The notes under the pieces: model-generated | Database searches by the model: none | Told to the model about the DNA's origin: nothing | What the model saw: the letters and a program-made list of their open reading frames with translations, nothing else | Source: Bacteroidales bacterium | GTDB lineage: Bacteria > Bacteroidota > Bacteroidia > Bacteroidales > JAEINX01 | DNA: 44,097 nt | Direction: 5' to 3' | NCBI GenBank assembly: GCA_016342645.1 | Contig: JAEINX010000021.1 | Coordinates: forward strand, 1 to 44,097 | In this document: piece by piece, positions 12,676-20,682 of the stretch | Layout of the letters: each line of letters begins with the position of its first letter | Numbering within the stretch: position 1 is the first letter of the stretch | Translations under genes and position numbers: made by a program

Positions 12676-14979
12676 TTATTTTTCAATGTTTTGATAAATC
12701 AAAACATCTGAATTATTCATATTAATTAAGTAGCCTTCATTAGGAATAATATTACCAATTCCATTAACCCAGTTTGGGCCGATTTTCACTATCATTAATC
12801 CATCTGAATTCCTTATAAAGTTTAAATTATCGTTTAAAATTGTTTCAAAGGCGCCTAAGGCATTAGTTGGTGTGTTAAGTAAACAGCTAATAATTTGATA
12901 GCCTAAATTTAATTCTATAGGGGTTTGGGGATCAATAATTTCACCTTCAATATGTAAAACTTCCAGGTTGTTCATTTTAAATAAATATCCTTCGGTGAGT
13001 ATCCAGTCACCAATTCCATTTACCCAAACGGGGCCTATTTTCCTAAACATTTGTCCATCCGAATTTCGAACAAAATCAAGGTTATCGTTTAAAATTTCAT
13101 CAAGTACGATTATCATATCAGGATTTTCGGGTAATAAATAAGATGAAACAAATTGGTATCCGTTAGCAAGTTCAATAGTTTGAGTAATTGTTACTGAGTT
13201 TACAAAAATCTCAATCAAGCTATTTGCAGTATTTTCCTCCGAATCGGTTACGGTAAGTGTGTAAATAGTTGTGTTTTCAGGGGAGGCAATAGGGTTTTGA
13301 ATACTTGGGTTGCTTAAGCCTTCGACAGGCAGCCATTGAAAACTATAAGGTTGTGCTCCACCATAAGCAAAAGAATTCAAGCTAACTGCATCACCTGATG
13401 AAATTGTGTCGTTTTCGCCTGCATTTGCCATAAGCTGTTTATAAACAAGATAATTGCCTTCAAGAAATCTTTCTTTTGCAGGAATTGTCCCTGAATTTAA
13501 AGCATTTGGAATTCCAATTGTCGGGAGTTCGGAAGCGACATTCCAAAATTCAGGGGTAGCGTTTAAATAATATGAGGTATCTGGTAAATAATTAGTGTTT
13601 GGAGGCAAAATTTCTCCATCAATATTATTTCCATGAGCAAAATGATTTGTACCGGTTAAAATATAATAAAGTCCGTAGAAAAGTTCAATGAAAAAATTAT
13701 AACCACCTTCTGTAACTTCGTTTCCTACAAAGTTTTGATCATTAGTTGGAGCACCTTCGGGCGGTGTCATAATTATTCCATACCAATCAATTCTGTTTCT
13801 GAAAAAAGTATTAAATGGTCCTGCAGGCCCCCAATAATGATCAATTATTAGGTTTTGAACAATATTTCCTTCAAAGAGATTTGAAAACGGATAATGCCCA
13901 TGCAATGAAATATCCCCGGAAAAATCATTTATTGGTTCTGAGCGAATCGGTTCAATTGAATAATTATATGAAAAAACATTTCCGTTTGCTCCGGTTTTCA
14001 CCATCATGGCATGACGCAAATGTTTAAAAATATTATTTTCAATTAAACAATCGCCGCAATGGTGGTTTAAAGTTACTCCATATCCGTGAGTTCCTACTCC
14101 GTCATATAAAAAAGCGTCATGAATAAAACAACCACTGATTTCAATTCCCATACTTGTTGTGATATAAATGTGACTTCCGGCACTTACATCACTTTCAACT
14201 CCGCTAACCCAACAATTATTTGAATACCCCAAATAAATGTTATAGCCGTTTCCTTCTCCGGGATTATCTTCTCTGACAATTTTTAAACATTCAATTCCAA
14301 CATTTGATCGTGGATTAATTTTTCGGATTTCCGGATTTAATCCTGCCTCATAATCAATTCTTAAAGCTTCCTCTATTTCGATTTCGTTACCGGAAATATT
14401 AATAATTTTTACAATTTGGCCTACAGAATAGTCGCCCCAGCTTATTGGGTTTGAATCCCATGAACCGTTTTCCTCTCTGATTTCAGCAAAATCACCAATC
14501 GAAAAAACAGAGGCATCAGTTATTGTAATTAAATTCGATCCTTTCAAATAATTTGAAATAATGGGCTGAAAATCACCTGATACACTTCCTGAAACAGAGA
14601 TACAACTTGCAGAAACACCACCGAGATTAAAGCTTAAAGTTGTAAACTCAGGCATTTCACCTCTTAAAATAACATTATCAGGTAGAGATAAAGTTGACTG
14701 AACTAAATAATTTCCCTGAGGGAAAAAAACAACTCCCTCTATTCCGTTTAAGGCATTGATTGCATCAATAATCGCTTGATAATCGTTAGTAGTTCCATTG
14801 CCTAAGGCTCCAAAATCCATTACATTCAAAACAAGGGAAGGATTAGGAATCTCACCCGAATATCCGGTATTTGTCCAATTAACCCTTTTAGATTCAGGGA
14901 TTATCTGTGCTTGAACACTGGCTGAAATGGCAATGGTTATTATTAATATTATAAATTTCCGTATTTCTATAGTTTTCAT
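12676..14979 (-). CDS. Secreted right-handed beta-helix (pectate-lyase-superfamily) protein with PKD-like and tandem C-terminal modules
   Basis: The 767 residues start with a signal peptide (cleavage after VQAQ). Residues ~50-510 form a beta-helix: the opening VMDFGALGNGTTNDYQAI is the hallmark of the pectate lyase superfamily / Pfam Pectate_lyase_3 group, and later turns read like CLIENNIFKHLRHAMMVKTG. Residues ~530-595 are a PKD/Ig-like domain (ANAGENDTISSGD ... YTLTVTDSEENTA). The C-terminus has two copies of an unassigned ~75-residue module (603-680 and 688-767) that also occurs twice in the protein at 22823-24067. It probably acts on, or binds, a polysaccharide outside the cell; the substrate is not visible. 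No standard T9SS sorting domain is seen at the end. Confidence 0.82.
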   Translation of the reverse strand: MKTIEIRKFIILIITIAISASVQAQIIPESKRVNWTNTGYSGEIPNPSLVLNVMDFGALGNGTTNDYQAIIDAINALNGIEGVVFFPQGNYLVQSTLSLPDNVILRGEMPEFTTLSFNLGGVSASCISVSGSVSGDFQPIISNYLKGSNLITITDASVFSIGDFAEIREENGSWDSNPISWGDYSVGQIVKIINISGNEIEIEEALRIDYEAGLNPEIRKINPRSNVGIECLKIVREDNPGEGNGYNIYLGYSNNCWVSGVESDVSAGSHIYITTSMGIEISGCFIHDAFLYDGVGTHGYGVTLNHHCGDCLIENNIFKHLRHAMMVKTGANGNVFSYNYSIEPIRSEPINDFSGDISLHGHYPFSNLFEGNIVQNLIIDHYWGPAGPFNTFFRNRIDWYGIIMTPPEGAPTNDQNFVGNEVTEGGYNFFIELFYGLYYILTGTNHFAHGNNIDGEILPPNTNYLPDTSYYLNATPEFWNVASELPTIGIPNALNSGTIPAKERFLEGNYLVYKQLMANAGENDTISSGDAVSLNSFAYGGAQPYSFQWLPVEGLSNPSIQNPIASPENTTIYTLTVTDSEENTANSLIEIFVNSVTITQTIELANGYQFVSSYLLPENPDMIIVLDEILNDNLDFVRNSDGQMFRKIGPVWVNGIGDWILTEGYLFKMNNLEVLHIEGEIIDPQTPIELNLGYQIISCLLNTPTNALGAFETILNDNLNFIRNSDGLMIVKIGPNWVNGIGNIIPNEGYLINMNNSDVLIYQNIEK
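12679..13173 (-). repeat. Tandem pair of the RNSxGxM-KIGPNWVNGIG module
   Basis: Copy 1 covers about 12940-13173 and copy 2 about 12679-12918. Shared positions are a GYQ(F/I) start, an IL-NDNL-F block, RNSDG(Q/L)M, KIGP-WVNGIG and EGYL--MNN. The nucleotide sequence around the KIGP-WVNGIG segment is still clearly similar between the copies and to the pair at 23474-23959. Confidence 0.85.
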
Positions 14980-15365
14980 TACAATAGTTTTAAGTTAGCA
15001 TAATACTTTTCCGTAATATTCAAATTTCGTTGCAATATACGACAATTATGCACAAAAGGCAATACAAGTTTCAAAAAGTTAATCAATAATTTTTTTTCAG
15101 CAGATGAAAAACATTATACTAATAGTTCGTTATTAAATTTTTAAAGCGATTTAAATTCAATTTCATTATCATTGGAAAAAGAATAATGAAAATATTATTC
15201 ATTTCAAAATTCGATTAAGGTTTTATAATTAATCGTTTATATAACCACTAAAGCAAATATGTTAATATATAGTTTTAAAAGTATTTGGAAATATAATGAA
15301 ATGTTATATTTTTGTCAAAAAAAAATATTTAAAGATTTTATTAACGAGTTACAATATAAAAAGAT
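14980..15365. other. Intergenic region between divergent genes
   Basis: These 386 AT-rich bases lie between the beta-helix gene (minus) and dsrC (plus). They hold the dsrC promoter at 15284-15314. On the minus strand a weaker element, TATATTGC about 50 nt before the beta-helix gene, is possible but not a full match. I see no small gene, RNA or repeat here. Confidence 0.6.
15284..15314 (+). promoter_or_regulatory. Promoter of dsrC
   Basis: TTTG (15284-15287), a 19-nt spacer and TATTTTTG (15307-15314) form a perfect Bacteroidota housekeeping promoter. The start codon lies 51 nt downstream of the -7 box. Confidence 0.82.
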
Positions 15366-15683
15366 ATGCCAGAAATAGATATTAATGGGAAGAAATTTGA
15401 AGTTGATGGAGACGGTTTCCTTCAGAAACCTGAAATATGGAATGAAGAAGTAGCAATTTTATTTGCAAATAGTGATGGTACAGGTGAGCTCAATGAAAAA
15501 CATTGGGCCGTTGTAAACTATATCAGATCACATTGGTTGGAAAATGATATGGCCCCTATGGTTAGAAATATTTGTAAAAATACGGGTTTGAGATTACGCG
15601 AAATTTATCAACTTTTTCCATTAGGTCCTGCCAGGGGTGCTTGTAGAATTGCCGGACTTCCAAAACCTGATGGTTGCGTTTAA
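15366..15683 (+). CDS. dsrC: DsrC/TusE-family sulfur carrier with both C-terminal cysteines
   Basis: This 105-residue protein matches DsrC/TusE along its whole length: EIDINGKKFEVDGDGFLQ, the acidic W-NEEVA segment, NYIRSHWLEND and the arm RGACRIAGLPKPDGCV. Two cysteines are present in the flexible arm, Cys93 and the penultimate Cys104, eleven residues apart, as in true DsrC; TusE proteins of tRNA thiolation usually keep only the last one. In sulfate reducers DsrC receives sulfur from DsrAB as a trisulfide that the DsrMK membrane complex then reduces. Here DsrMK-like genes follow, but no dsrAB, tusBCD or tusA is in the window. The sulfur donor is therefore unknown. Confidence 0.93.
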   Translation: MPEIDINGKKFEVDGDGFLQKPEIWNEEVAILFANSDGTGELNEKHWAVVNYIRSHWLENDMAPMVRNICKNTGLRLREIYQLFPLGPARGACRIAGLPKPDGCV

Positions 15684-15870
15684 AATAAAAAATGGTTAAA
15701 TTGTTGATATGGAGCAAAAGAATTTAAAAATTGTGTAATCTAATCGCAATTACTCAAATAAAAAATTAGCAATTTATTCATTTGACAATATAACAATTTT
15801 AGCATAATAATTTAACTTAGAGTGCAAATGCTTACAAGTATTTATTGATTGTTTTTTAAAATTTATTCAA

Positions 15871-16500
15871 ATGTTTACAATTTATCATTGGATTTTTCTT
15901 GCAGGGTTTGCAATATGCTTAATCTCTTGCCTTGTCCAATTTTTTAAAGTCATTTTATCCGGTTTACCAAAAGATTTTTCTCACCCTCTTGGCAAAACCT
16001 TGCCGGCAATATTTTATTCATTTACGGGTGCAATGTCACCAACAAAAAAGGAAACCGCTTATCTTCATCTACCAACTTATACTGCCGGAATAATTTTTCA
16101 TATCGGTACTTTTTGGGGACTTTTTTATTTAATTGTTTTATTTTTCAATATTCAATTACCTGAATGGTTAGGATATTCTTCAACAGTACTATTAATTATC
16201 TCAGCAATTTGCGGTTTATCAATTTTAATAAAAAGAAGAATAGTATCAAAATTAAGAAACCTTTCAAATCCAGATGATTATATTAGTAATATTCTTGTAA
16301 CCGGTTTTCAAATTTTATTGGCAGTTACTATTTTGAATAATCAAATCCTTACTGTTTTACTTATCTATTCGACCGTGTTATTTCTTTATTTGCCTATTGG
16401 GAAGCTTCGACACACGATTTATTTTTTTACATCACGAATTCATCTTGGTTTCTTTTACGGGTGGCGAGGAGTATGGCCAATCCGAAAACATAATACTTAA
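15871..16500 (+). CDS. DsrM-like cytochrome b membrane subunit (NarI-type fold)
   Basis: The 209 residues contain about five transmembrane helices (near 5-28, 68-92, 100-120, 138-158, 160-178), and the short C-terminal part ends in a basic stretch. Four histidines are placed as haem b ligands, two near one helix (His66 and His77, LHLPTYTAGIIFHIGTF) and two near the other end (His181 and His191), reminiscent of NarI/DsrM subunits. Such proteins move electrons between the quinone pool and a partner enzyme. The partner is the Fe-S protein that starts 2 nt later. It is shorter than a typical DsrM of sulfate reducers, so an automatic annotation might read nitrate reductase gamma subunit; no NarG/NarH is present. 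Confidence 0.8.
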   Translation: MFTIYHWIFLAGFAICLISCLVQFFKVILSGLPKDFSHPLGKTLPAIFYSFTGAMSPTKKETAYLHLPTYTAGIIFHIGTFWGLFYLIVLFFNIQLPEWLGYSSTVLLIISAICGLSILIKRRIVSKLRNLSNPDDYISNILVTGFQILLAVTILNNQILTVLLIYSTVLFLYLPIGKLRHTIYFFTSRIHLGFFYGWRGVWPIRKHNT

Positions 16501-16502
16501 AA

Positions 16503-17804
16503 ATGAGAGCAAAATTATCAGATAAACATCAAAAAGCATTAAATTTTTTTGACAGCAAACTTAACGGGAAATTTATTACACATTTAAATTCATGTGTTCA
16601 TTGCGGACTTTGCGGTGAATCTTGTCATTATTATCTTGCTACTAAAGATGAGCGTTTTATGCCAGCAAGGAAGGTGGATTTGGTTGCAAGTATTTACAGG
16701 AGATACCACACTTTTGCCGGTCGATTTTTACCAAAACTTGTTGGGGCAAGAGACCTTAACGACGAAACAATCGAAGAAATGGTCGATGTTTTATTTGGTG
16801 CTTGCACAATGTGTGGCCGATGTTCGGTGCATTGTTCAATAGGTGTTGATGTTCCTTTTCTTGTACGAACAGCAAGGAGTATGCTTGTTGAAATGGATCT
16901 TGTTCCAAAAGGATTACAATCAACTGTTGATGCAGCAATTAATACGGGAAATAATATGGGTATTCCTCGCAACGAGTTTGTTGACACCCTGGAATGGTTG
17001 GAAGAAGACCTTCAAATGGAGGTGGAAGATGATAATGCAGAAATCCCGCGAGACCAAAAAGGGAAGAAAATCATGTACACCTTAAATCCTCGTGAACCAA
17101 AATTCTTTCCACTTTCGATAAGTGCAATGGCAAAAATATATTATGCTGCAAAAGAAAGCTGGACAATATCAACAAACACTTATGATGTAACAAATTATTC
17201 ATATTATTCGGGCGATAACGAAGGAGCTCGTGAGCTGACCGATCGTCTTTGTAAAGAAATGAAGAATCTGGACGCAGAAACTCTTGTACTTGCTGAATGC
17301 GGACATGGTTCAAGAGCAATAAGATGGGAGGGGCCCAATTGGGTTGAAAAAGAATATCCTTTTAAAGTTATTACTGTTATTGAGGTAATTGCTGATTATA
17401 TTCGATCAGGAAGAATTAAACTTGATCCTTCAAAAAACACTCAACTTATTACCCTTCACGATCCATGCAACTTGGTGCGAGCTGGAGGCATAATTGAAGA
17501 ACAGCGATTTATTTTAAAAAATGCTGTCGAAAATTTTATCGAAATGACTCCAAACCGTGAAAACAATTATTGTTGTGGAGGCGGTGGCGGTCAGCTTGCC
17601 ATGAGCGAATATAATGAAAGGAGAGTTGAATCGGGAAGAATTAAAGCCGATCAAATCAGGGCTACGGGTGCAAAAATTGTTGCAACGCCATGTCATAATT
17701 GCATCGACCAACTAATGGGTTTAAACAGCGATTATAAACTTGGTGTAGAAATTATGACAATTGGTGAAATTGTTGCAAATGCTCTTATTCTTGGAGTAGA
17801 ATAA
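16503..17804 (+). CDS. DsrK/HdrD-like Fe-S oxidoreductase
   Basis: This 433-residue soluble protein has two CxxCxxCxxxC [4Fe-4S] sites (Cys31/34/37/41 and Cys101/104/107/111) and a C-terminal CCG domain (Cys322, Cys357-Cys358, Cys397 and Cys400). That is the arrangement of DsrK and HdrD, where the CCG cysteines hold a special cubane that cleaves a disulfide. An earlier segment, LVLAECGHGSRA (261-272), looks like a degenerate first CCG repeat. It is translationally close to the dsrM-like gene and shares the dsrC direction. The inferred job is quinone-linked reduction or oxidation of the DsrC disulfide or trisulfide. Lactate or glycolate oxidase Fe-S subunits share the CCG domain, but the neighbouring dsrC argues for DsrK. 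Confidence 0.85.
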   Translation: MRAKLSDKHQKALNFFDSKLNGKFITHLNSCVHCGLCGESCHYYLATKDERFMPARKVDLVASIYRRYHTFAGRFLPKLVGARDLNDETIEEMVDVLFGACTMCGRCSVHCSIGVDVPFLVRTARSMLVEMDLVPKGLQSTVDAAINTGNNMGIPRNEFVDTLEWLEEDLQMEVEDDNAEIPRDQKGKKIMYTLNPREPKFFPLSISAMAKIYYAAKESWTISTNTYDVTNYSYYSGDNEGARELTDRLCKEMKNLDAETLVLAECGHGSRAIRWEGPNWVEKEYPFKVITVIEVIADYIRSGRIKLDPSKNTQLITLHDPCNLVRAGGIIEEQRFILKNAVENFIEMTPNRENNYCCGGGGGQLAMSEYNERRVESGRIKADQIRATGAKIVATPCHNCIDQLMGLNSDYKLGVEIMTIGEIVANALILGVE

Positions 17805-17816
17805 AATTTATTTGTC

Positions 17817-17842
17817 AAAAAAAAACTTCTTGCAAAACAAGA
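17817..17842 (-). terminator. Weak terminator of the cysteine desulfurase gene
   Basis: A 5-bp stem (TCTTG / CAAGA, 5-nt loop) at 17828-17842 is followed on the minus strand by nine T (17817-17825). The stem is short, so this is tentative. Confidence 0.4.
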
Positions 17843-17869
17843 GATTATTTGTTTAAGTATATTGAAAAA

Positions 17870-19030
17870 CTAATTTTTCATAGAAGCAATTTCACCGACA
17901 GCTTCAATGGCTTTATTGATATGATCATCGGTTGAAAATGGCCCTAAACTAAACCTGACAGTTCCATGTATTTTTTCAGTGCCGATATAGCGATGAACCA
18001 GTGGAGCACATTGTAAACCTGTCCGGCTTGCAATATTATAATCGACATCAAGCATAGTGCCAACATCACCGGCTTCCCAGCCATTTACATTGAAACTAAG
18101 AACGGCATTTTGGTTTTTAGTGTCATCTGCACAATAGGTTGTAACTCCATCAATATTTTGTAAACCTAATCTTAATTTATCCCATAATGCGATTTCCTGA
18201 GCATGAATTTTTTTAATACCTTGTTCGCGTATCCACTTCTGTCCGGCAAATAAACCTGCAACTCCAAGAACATTTAATGTACCACATTCCATGCGATAAG
18301 GAAATTCTTCAAGATGAAAAGGATAGGCTGAACGAACACCGGTTCCGCCAAAACGAGTTCCTTTAATAGGAACATTTTCTCCAACATATGATCCTCCGAT
18401 TCCGGTTGGGCCCATTAAACATTTATGGCCGGTAAAAGCCAAAAGATCAATATTCATTTTTTTAATATCAATTTCAATAATTCCTGCAGTCTGACTTGCA
18501 TCAACAGCAAAATAAATTCCGGCATCTCTACATAATTTCCCTACTTCCTCTATGGGTTGAACAGTACCAATTATGTTTGAGCCATGATTCATGATCACAA
18601 GTTTGGTGTTTTTCTTAAATGCTTTCTTGAAATCATCAGGATTAACATATCCTTTTTTGTTAAATGGAATATAGGTAAGCTCAATCTCACCGGCATCCAT
18701 TTTATGATATAAAGGTCTTAAAACTGAATTATGTTCAAGATTTGTGGTGATAACATGATCTCCTTTTTCAGCCATTCCTTGAATAATCATGTTTAATGAA
18801 TCGCTTGCATTATAACTAAAAGTTAAATAATTAGGATTTTCTCCGTTAAAAAACTCCGTAAGCATTTTTCTTGTTCCATGAACCACTTCTTCGGTTTCAA
18901 TTGCTTTATCGAAACCTGAACGGCCGGGATTAACTCCATTTTTTCGATAGAAATCAATCATAAAATCATACACTTCCTTGGGTTTTGGAAATGTGGTTGC
19001 ACCATTATCTAAGTAGATTAAATCATCCAT
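17870..19030 (-). CDS. Class V aminotransferase-fold cysteine desulfurase
   Basis: These 386 residues belong to the PLP-dependent cysteine desulfurase group (SufS/IscS relatives). The start IYLDNGATTFPKP, His100 in NLEHNS, Asp177 in AVDASQ, the PLP lysine Lys203 in FTGHKCLMGP and the presumed sulfur-accepting Cys341 in SRTGLQCAPLVH are all present. The short C-terminal SRTGLQCAPL motif is typical of the stand-alone 'cysteine desulfurase family protein' type and not of the SufS in suf operons. The enzyme would release sulfur from cysteine as a protein persulfide. It converges with the dsrK-like gene with 65 nt between them; a role as sulfur donor to DsrC is possible but not shown by gene order alone. 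Confidence 0.9.
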   Translation of the reverse strand: MDDLIYLDNGATTFPKPKEVYDFMIDFYRKNGVNPGRSGFDKAIETEEVVHGTRKMLTEFFNGENPNYLTFSYNASDSLNMIIQGMAEKGDHVITTNLEHNSVLRPLYHKMDAGEIELTYIPFNKKGYVNPDDFKKAFKKNTKLVIMNHGSNIIGTVQPIEEVGKLCRDAGIYFAVDASQTAGIIEIDIKKMNIDLLAFTGHKCLMGPTGIGGSYVGENVPIKGTRFGGTGVRSAYPFHLEEFPYRMECGTLNVLGVAGLFAGQKWIREQGIKKIHAQEIALWDKLRLGLQNIDGVTTYCADDTKNQNAVLSFNVNGWEAGDVGTMLDVDYNIASRTGLQCAPLVHRYIGTEKIHGTVRFSLGPFSTDDHINKAIEAVGEIASMKN

Positions 19031-19329
19031 TATATTAAGTTTTAATCAATATTTTTGTGGTTATTACTATTTAAATATCTATTTATATAAATAAATGCAA
19101 AACTAAAGGATTTTATTTAAATTGCAATTCTAAATAGCTCTCAAAAAAAACAAATTTTGATTAAAACTTAATATGATTAAACTTTGAATTGAAAAAATAA
19201 TTTTTATTATCCTTTTCTTCAGGAAAATGTAAAATAAAAAAAAATCAGCAAAAAAGAATTTTGTAATAATTTTTCTTAATATTGCTAACAATTAAGGAAG
19301 ATATAAGTTTAACATAAAAATTTGAAATC
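19031..19329. other. Intergenic region between divergent desulfurase and purB genes
   Basis: About 300 very AT-rich bases. I find no full TTTG/TAnnTTTG promoter for either gene, no RNA gene and no repeat. Confidence 0.5.
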
Positions 19330-20682
19330 ATGGACTTAACACCATTTAATGCAATTTCGCCGATTGACGGAAGATATAGAAAACAAACAGAAGCTTTATG
19401 TTATTATTTTTCGGAAGCTGCTTTTATTAATTACAGGGTTTTTGTTGAAATCGAATATTTTATAGCTTTAAGCCAAATTCCTTTGCCGCAGTTGAAAGAT
19501 ATTGATTCCAATATTCATGACCAATTACGTTCAATCAGCAAAGTATTTACTTTTAAGGATGCAAACGAAGTAAAGGAAATTGAAAAAAAGACAAATCATG
19601 ATGTTAAAGCGGTTGAATATTATCTTAGAAAGAAGTTCGATAAATTAGGATTTGGCCAATACAAAGAATTTATTCATTTTGGATTAACATCTCAGGATAT
19701 TAATAATACTGCTATTCCCTATGCTTTAAAATTAGGACTTAATGATGTTATGTTTCCTTTGCTTAACGAGCTTATTAACAAACTTGAACAAAAAGCAAAA
19801 GAATGGAAAAAAATTCCTATGCTTGCTCGAACACATGGACAAGCTGCTTCCCCAACTTATGTCGGAAAAGAAATTTATGTTTTTGTTGATAGGTTAAAAC
19901 AGCAAGTTAAACAGATGAGATTTATTCCAATAACTGCAAAATTTGGAGGTGCTATCGGAAATTTCAATGCTCATTTTGCTGCTTATCCCCAAATTGATTG
20001 GATAAATTTTTCAAATAATTTTGTGAAGGAAAATTTGGGACTCGAACGCCAAAAAATTACTACACAAATTGAACATTACGATGATCTTGCTGCTCTTTTC
20101 GATTGTTTTAAAAGAATTAATACAATTTTGATTGACCTTACTCGTGATTTCTGGCAATATATTTCAATGGATTATTTTAAGCAAAAAATTGCAACTGACG
20201 AAGTCGGTTCTTCAGCTATGCCGCATAAAATTAATCCTATTGATTTTGAAAATTCAGAAGGGAATCTCGGAATTGCCAATTCATTTTTTGAATTTTTATC
20301 AGCAAAACTTCCCATCTCACGACTGCAAAGAGATTTAACAGATTCAACGGTTTCGAGAAATATTGGCGTTCCGTTTGCTCATACTCTCATTTCGATTAAA
20401 TCTTTATTAAAAGGCCTTAATAAATTATTGATTAACGAAAATGCAATTAAAAATGATTTGCAAAATAATTGGGAAGTTGTATCTGAAGGAATTCAAACTA
20501 TTTTGAGAAGAGAAAATTACCCGAATCCTTACGATGCATTGAAAAAACTTACACGAACAAATGATAAAATCACAAAGGAGGCTATTTCTGTTTTTATAAA
20601 TAAATTGCATGTGCCGGAATCGGTTAAAGATGAATTAAGACAACTAACTCCCGAAAATTATACGGGAATAAATTCTTTTTAA
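19330..20682 (+). CDS. purB: Adenylosuccinate lyase
   Basis: PurB catalyses two steps of purine synthesis, release of fumarate from SAICAR and from adenylosuccinate. The 450-residue length and motifs fit the E. coli-type subgroup: the start FNAISPIDGRY, TSQDINNTAIP (120-130), ARTHGQAASP with His169, and the fumarase/aspartase-superfamily signature SSAMPHKINP (294-303) that carries the catalytic Ser. It appears monocistronic, with 184 nt to the next gene, which has its own promoter. Confidence 0.97.
   Translation: MDLTPFNAISPIDGRYRKQTEALCYYFSEAAFINYRVFVEIEYFIALSQIPLPQLKDIDSNIHDQLRSISKVFTFKDANEVKEIEKKTNHDVKAVEYYLRKKFDKLGFGQYKEFIHFGLTSQDINNTAIPYALKLGLNDVMFPLLNELINKLEQKAKEWKKIPMLARTHGQAASPTYVGKEIYVFVDRLKQQVKQMRFIPITAKFGGAIGNFNAHFAAYPQIDWINFSNNFVKENLGLERQKITTQIEHYDDLAALFDCFKRINTILIDLTRDFWQYISMDYFKQKIATDEVGSSAMPHKINPIDFENSEGNLGIANSFFEFLSAKLPISRLQRDLTDSTVSRNIGVPFAHTLISIKSLLKGLNKLLINENAIKNDLQNNWEVVSEGIQTILRRENYPNPYDALKKLTRTNDKITKEAISVFINKLHVPESVKDELRQLTPENYTGINSF

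Follow-up and report, generated by a model that had tools for sequence, protein, structure and literature searches.

The window, a 44,097-nucleotide stretch of a Bacteroidales bacterium (GenBank assembly GCA_016342645.1, contig JAEINX010000021.1; C178 among the 198 contigs of a 4.17 Mb genome that is 93.5% complete), carries a dsrC gene followed by genes for a membrane subunit, M, and an Fe-S protein, K, with a cysteine desulfurase family gene, Csd, on the opposite strand (Table 1). An earlier note, made from the letters of this DNA, had described the first three genes as a minimal, stand-alone, quinone-linked relay for DsrC behind a perfect promoter. The promoter match is found as described; the window holds five matches of this type against 3.5 by chance, so it is position that supports this one, and the promoter was discarded as a sign of special regulation. 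No Rfam element was found within 14900-19400, and counts of sigma-70 promoters and terminators were near chance. Neither dsrJOP beside dsrMK nor TusBCD beside the module was found in the window. Elsewhere, a small cysteine-rich protein (~83 aa, matching no Pfam family) is encoded directly upstream of DsrC (L057:8775-9032 and 11 other loci), a gene that the window does not have at this position, and a Bacteroidota subset (L050:7484-9004 and similar) features a larger class-V aminotransferase (~490-506 aa) upstream of DsrC, accompanied by a NifX-like protein and a CRP regulator.

Table 1. Positions of the module's genes, promoter match and key codons in the window
Feature	Position	Strand	Description
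Promoter match	15284..15314	+	TTTG-N19-TATTTTTG, Bacteroidota-type; 51 bases upstream of dsrC start
dsrC	15366..15683	+	105 aa; TIGR03342, PF04358
dsrC Cys70 codon	15573-15575		extra cysteine
dsrC Cys93 codon	15642-15644		arm cysteine
dsrC Cys104 codon	15675-15677		arm cysteine
M	15871..16500	+	209 aa; five-helix NarI-like cytochrome b-type quinone subunit (AlphaFold2, Foldseek)
K	16503..17804	+	433 aa; DsrK/HmcF/TmcB-like Fe-S and CCG protein
K cluster-site codons	16593-16625; 16803-16835; 17466-17702
Csd	17870..19030	-	386 aa; TIGR01977 cysteine desulfurase family protein, convergent with K

Cofactor and catalytic residues of the four proteins

DsrC belongs to both families against which it was scored, with 103 bits for TIGR03342 (cut-off 53.5) and 115 bits for PF04358 (cut-off 24.9). 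Its C-terminus, GACRIAGLPKPDGCV, holds the two arm cysteines that had been read from the sequence; Cys104 is kept in 63/63 module DsrCs and Cys93 in 60/63, being replaced by Ala in L091, L097 and L112. At two of these three loci an adjacent Csd is not visible. A third cysteine, Cys70, is invariant (63/63), and its position is occupied by Ser or Thr in the DsrC structures 2xsj, 2v4j and 1ji8. Within Zixibacteria, M and K can be followed by a ~216-aa protein (L158:3200-3850 on the minus strand; also L160, L161 and L163) that scores as a tandem pair of DsrC domains, with two PF04358 stretches (tested in L158).

The AlphaFold2 model of M (pLDDT 92.5) comprises five long membrane helices, and among known folds it resembles only NarI of NarGHI well (Foldseek probability 1.00, TM ~0.5, E ~0.05), so that the predicted structure has both features expected of a NarI/DsrM-like subunit. 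By sequence, M matched no Pfam family and none of the solved structures searched, and its best NCBIfam scores are to HmcE/TmcC. The earlier note had seen five helices with His pairs for two haems; the helices and four histidines (His66, His77, His181 and His191) are there, and across the family His77 and His181 are conserved in 67/67, His66 in 62/67 and His191 in 35/67. Since only His77 and His181 are invariant, one predicted haem b is well supported, and a putative second is not general to the family.

K bears the two ferredoxin-type sites (C31xxC34xxC37xxxC41 and C101xxC104xxC107xxxC111) and single CCG motif (C322...C357C358G...C397xxC400) first ascribed to it, and all thirteen cluster cysteines, together with Cys266, are invariant (81/81). 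A PF02754 match of 46 bits and a structure model resembling EtfD, LutA and HdrB (Foldseek), the CCG cluster fold, place K within the DsrK/HdrD superfamily. EtfD is also its only match among solved structures by sequence, and a plasmid search returned distant Fe-S proteins only. K remains outside the narrower families, scoring 300.9 bits for HmcF (cut-off 750), 300.2 for TmcB (cut-off 735) and 266.6 for NF045796, the DsrMKJOP-type DsrK model (cut-off 400), on which true DsrKs reach 724-748. Kinship with lactate or glycolate oxidases was rejected (LdhH 69.5 and GlcF 26.5 bits, vs 267-301), and K lies near DsrK, HmcF and TmcB. In a tree that has long branches between groups and contains no true TmcB, HmcF or archaeal/clostridial DsrMK, the module K proteins group by themselves (100/100), outside the Zixibacteria/Chlorobi DsrMKJOP-type DsrK clade (100/100), a Zixibacterial clade where DsrC comes after M-K, and a clade adjoining ferredoxin-like genes and resembling Hmc/Tmc.

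Csd, a predicted desulfurase, exceeds the TIGR01977 cut-off (430.3 vs 377 bits) and retains the PLP-binding Lys203 (at least 95%) and the active-site Cys341 (54/54). The runner-up model is the selenocysteine lyase SclA, where Csd scores 311 bits and misses the cut-off of 525.

Conservation of the locus across phyla

To catalogue related loci, 84,980 genomes were scanned with a two-sequence K alignment and the best 80 of 224 relatives were kept. These loci are found in Bacteroidota, Ignavibacteria, Aminicenantes, Zixibacteria, Acidobacteriota, KSB1 and Eisenbacteria, with a single record labelled Phycisphaerae; most derive from metagenome-assembled genomes, where lone odd taxon labels are possibly binning errors. 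Among these best 80, DsrC and M lie upstream of K in 58 of the 72 loci with enough upstream sequence, and Csd adjoins an intact DsrC-M-K in 47 of the 49 with enough flank on both sides: 31 times downstream on the same strand, 14 times downstream but on the other strand, which is the window's arrangement, and twice upstream of DsrC. Where DsrC is missing beside K, Csd occurs in just 1/13 loci (Fisher 5e-10 for the two proportions, with loci treated as independent, which they are not fully). Csd follows DsrC rather than K, and its retention despite rearrangement argues for a functional link with DsrC-M-K. The supposedly minimal set is a unit of four genes, of which Csd had been overlooked.

The same association holds within the window's order, sampled by 119 genomes that each represent a separate family. 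Of these, 11/119 have K, and Csd at 63-100% identity was found in 11/11 genomes with K vs 1/108 without it (Fisher p ~1e-14, ignoring kinship); the remaining Csd matches in the order reach 42% identity at most. K is also kept in host-associated Bacteroidales (termite, rumen, horse and similar; L084, L086, L087, L089, L090, L093, L096, L098, L103, L104 and L109-L111) with no adjacent DsrC or Csd and mostly no M, and the sampled members form one subclade of the K tree. This pattern suggests that the module's partners may have been lost jointly in this group, K being retained for another use.

Sulfur genes in genomes lacking a siroheme sulfite reductase

The siroheme sulfite/nitrite reductase domain, PF01077, was found neither in the window's genome nor in any of the 50 others with K that were searched; 42 of these 50 carry a two-Cys DsrC at the module. 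The same search recovered the domain in 11/14 control genomes. The prediction of a quinone-linked DsrC relay lacking the classical sulfite reductase is supported, a split classical Dsr locus is ruled out for the window's genome, and DsrAB is excluded as the module's general partner. PF01077 is uncommon in the order as a whole (7/119 genomes), and its anti-correlation with the module there is not significant (0/50 vs 7/108, p 0.10); given this low baseline we report the absence as fact, not as selection. ATP sulfurylase, whose gene the earlier note had also proposed to look for, is likewise lacking from the window's genome and was found in 8/51 K-bearing genomes. In published work the first DsrC arm cysteine occurs with DsrAB only, with few exceptions (PMC3397948). 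The expected co-occurrence fails in the window's genome and the 50 others, and the module DsrC family is a broad exception to this rule.

The supposed stand-alone character of the module is not supported, and other contigs of the same genome carry further sulfur loci. Contig C6 encodes CRP, TusA, a YedE-like transporter, three rhodaneses, DsrE, DsrE2 and a second TusA, along with an MvhD-like protein, two HdrA/Qmo-like flavoproteins and a QmoC-like protein (212 bits vs a cut-off of 300). Contig C183 encodes a type III SQR-family protein, DUF1641, a DsrC with the last cysteine only (DsrC') and DsrE. Several freshwater Bacteroidota have a large part or the whole of this gene set on the contig of the module; in several relatives such loci adjoin it, and there are several in which SQR-DUF1641-DsrC'-DsrE, DsrC-M-K-Csd and DsrE2-TusA-MvhD-Hdr/Qmo-like genes lie on a single contig. 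DsrE2 was found in only 17/51 K-bearing genomes, which makes Csd the more constant sulfur donor; the import route looks like an optional input and Csd the constant one. In the genomes that do have import genes, cysteine is possibly not the main sulfur source. The SQR of C183 (L033:8318-9559) scores 642 bits against a model named 'type III SQR, selenoprotein subtype' and reads full length with no in-frame stop. Genes resembling SelA, SelB, YedF and SelD lie on contig C53 (L183).

A proposed sulfane-sulfur cycle, its rivals and its relatives

These data describe a real, conserved, DsrAB-independent variant of DsrC-DsrMK that is tied to a cysteine desulfurase, and of the candidate partners named from the sequence it is cysteine-derived persulfide that the conserved Csd picks out. 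We give about even chances to a model in which DsrC, M, K and the adjacent Csd act together as a unit to reduce sulfane sulfur, with no sulfite reductase involved. Csd would strip L-cysteine of its sulfur, carry it as a Cys341 persulfide and hand it to DsrC Cys104, yielding DsrC-S-SH and alanine. Attack by Cys93 would then expel H2S and leave a Cys93-Cys104 disulfide or, alternatively, a trisulfide would form and be cleaved by K. This second step requires no DsrAB chemistry; we know of no demonstration of sulfide release by Cys93 attack in any DsrC. Finally, as homology to DsrMK suggests, menaquinol electrons would pass through the haem b of M to the non-cubane CCG cluster of K and re-reduce DsrC, such that cysteine (or other sulfane sulfur) and MKH2 would give alanine, H2S and MK overall. 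In the window's genome and some relatives, sulfane sulfur imported via SQR or rhodanese, TusA and DsrE2 may feed the same DsrC. The cycle might serve respiration, sulfur supply or persulfide removal. Two of the steps have biochemical precedent: given cysteine, IscS persulfurates the penultimate Cys of DsrC in vitro (PMC3397948), and DsrMK(JOP) reduces the trisulfide form of DsrC in a reaction that is coupled to energy conservation (PMC10504309).

The conserved arm cysteines of DsrC, cluster cysteines of K, His77 and His181 of M and Cys341 and Lys203 of Csd support this single-unit model. The Ala that replaces Cys93 in three DsrCs counts against it, as do the host-associated K genes that have neither DsrC nor Csd beside them and the window's own Csd, which is convergent with K and outside its operon; the import genes of 17/51 genomes could also point to a main source other than cysteine in those genomes. 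A more specific reading, possible and offered only tentatively, is that the module is a menaquinol-dependent cysteine-sulfur reductase for which cysteine sulfur loaded on DsrC is the terminal electron acceptor of an anaerobic respiration spanning uncultured Bacteroidota, Ignavibacteria, Aminicenantes, Zixibacteria and Acidobacteriota.

Gene linkage gives no direction of electron flow, and the reverse direction is the main rival, if an unlikely one. Here MK would oxidise DsrC thiols or persulfide to a disulfide or trisulfide, pass the electrons to menaquinone and form the front end of sulfide or sulfane-sulfur oxidation with SQR, TusA, DsrE2 and the Hdr/Qmo-like complex. The same proteins work in reverse in sulfur oxidisers (PMC13293266), the window's genome has all three gene sets and several relatives have them on one contig; there is, however, no DsrAB, and in the window's genome no ATP sulfurylase, to take the sulfur onward, and across genomes it is Csd that is nearly constant, rather than DsrE2. 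The next rival, a biosynthetic relay, is less probable again. Fe-S clusters, tRNA thiolation or thiocofactors would draw their sulfide or persulfide from Csd and DsrC, with MK merely a quinol-powered reductant; a desulfurase-to-DsrC-family path is known in IscS-TusA-TusBCD-TusE (PMC3397948), and the present genomes, being devoid of siroheme sulfite reductases, probably take up cysteine or sulfide. The last cysteine suffices for TusE-type relays, however, whereas nearly all DsrCs here keep both, and the module's restriction to a minority of the order is unlike the distribution of essential thiolation genes; nor was any scaffold or tRNA-thiolation gene recognised among the recurrent neighbours.

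The DsrC fold is helix-turn-helix-like, which together with three conserved cysteines, including the family-specific Cys70, would suit a thioredoxin-like carrier or regulator held reduced by MK, with Csd incidental. We regard such thiol-redox control as very improbable, since Csd is conserved and is absent nearly wherever DsrC is absent. Least probable of all, and hardly to be expected, is a module for selenium metabolism whose Csd would be a selenocysteine lyase: SclA is its second-best model, the genome has SelA-, SelB-, YedF- and SelD-like proteins and its SQR fits the selenoprotein-subtype model, but Csd scores above the cut-off for TIGR01977 and below that for SclA.

Among the open-access papers searched in full text on DsrC with cysteine desulfurase, and on DsrC with DsrMK and Bacteroidales, none was found that describes the module. 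DsrC and DsrMK are usually seen as parts of sulfite and sulfate metabolism; the pairing, in several phyla, of a two-Cys DsrC with a cysteine desulfurase where the genome encodes no siroheme sulfite reductase at all suggests a quinone-linked DsrC cycle able to run on desulfurase-made persulfide. Such a cycle would add another way for H2S to form in anoxic habitats and is a candidate DsrAB-free state of the pathway, and it cautions that dsrC or dsrMK alone are unsafe for calling sulfate reducers.

Amongst known systems, the module shares with DsrC-DsrMK(JOP), known from sulfate reducers and sulfur oxidisers, the two-Cys DsrC, the NarI-like M, a K that combines a pair of ferredoxin-type sites with a single CCG motif and, by inference here, quinone-linked thiol chemistry. 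It differs in having no DsrAB, no JOP beside it, a K in a separate clade (267 bits vs a cut-off of 400), an extra cysteine, Cys70, in DsrC, and a cysteine desulfurase in place of the sulfite reductase. The DsrMK-only clades also have dsrMK without dsrJOP, and a few published assemblies lack DsrAB; members of their basal clade are archaea, deltaproteobacteria and clostridia, mostly with DsrAB, and the word 'cysteine' does not occur in the text describing them (PMC10504309). HmcEF/TmcBC, the Desulfovibrio-type transmembrane complexes, provide the top NCBIfam models of M and K, but K falls far under their cut-offs (301 and 300 vs 750 and 735), no other Hmc/Tmc subunits lie beside the module, and its partners are instead DsrC and Csd. 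With YedE-TusA-DsrE (YTD, DsrEFH type II) sulfur-import clusters the window's genome has in common the TusA, YedE-like and DsrE2 genes of C6, whereas DsrE2 was found in only a third of the tested K-bearing genomes, and DsrAB is lacking. Finally, the IscS-TusA-TusBCD-TusE tRNA-thiolation relay likewise has a cysteine desulfurase feeding a DsrC-family protein; the module DsrC has neither the TusBCD partner nor the single Cys of TusE, and instead retains the second redox cysteine and is accompanied by a quinone-linked reductase.
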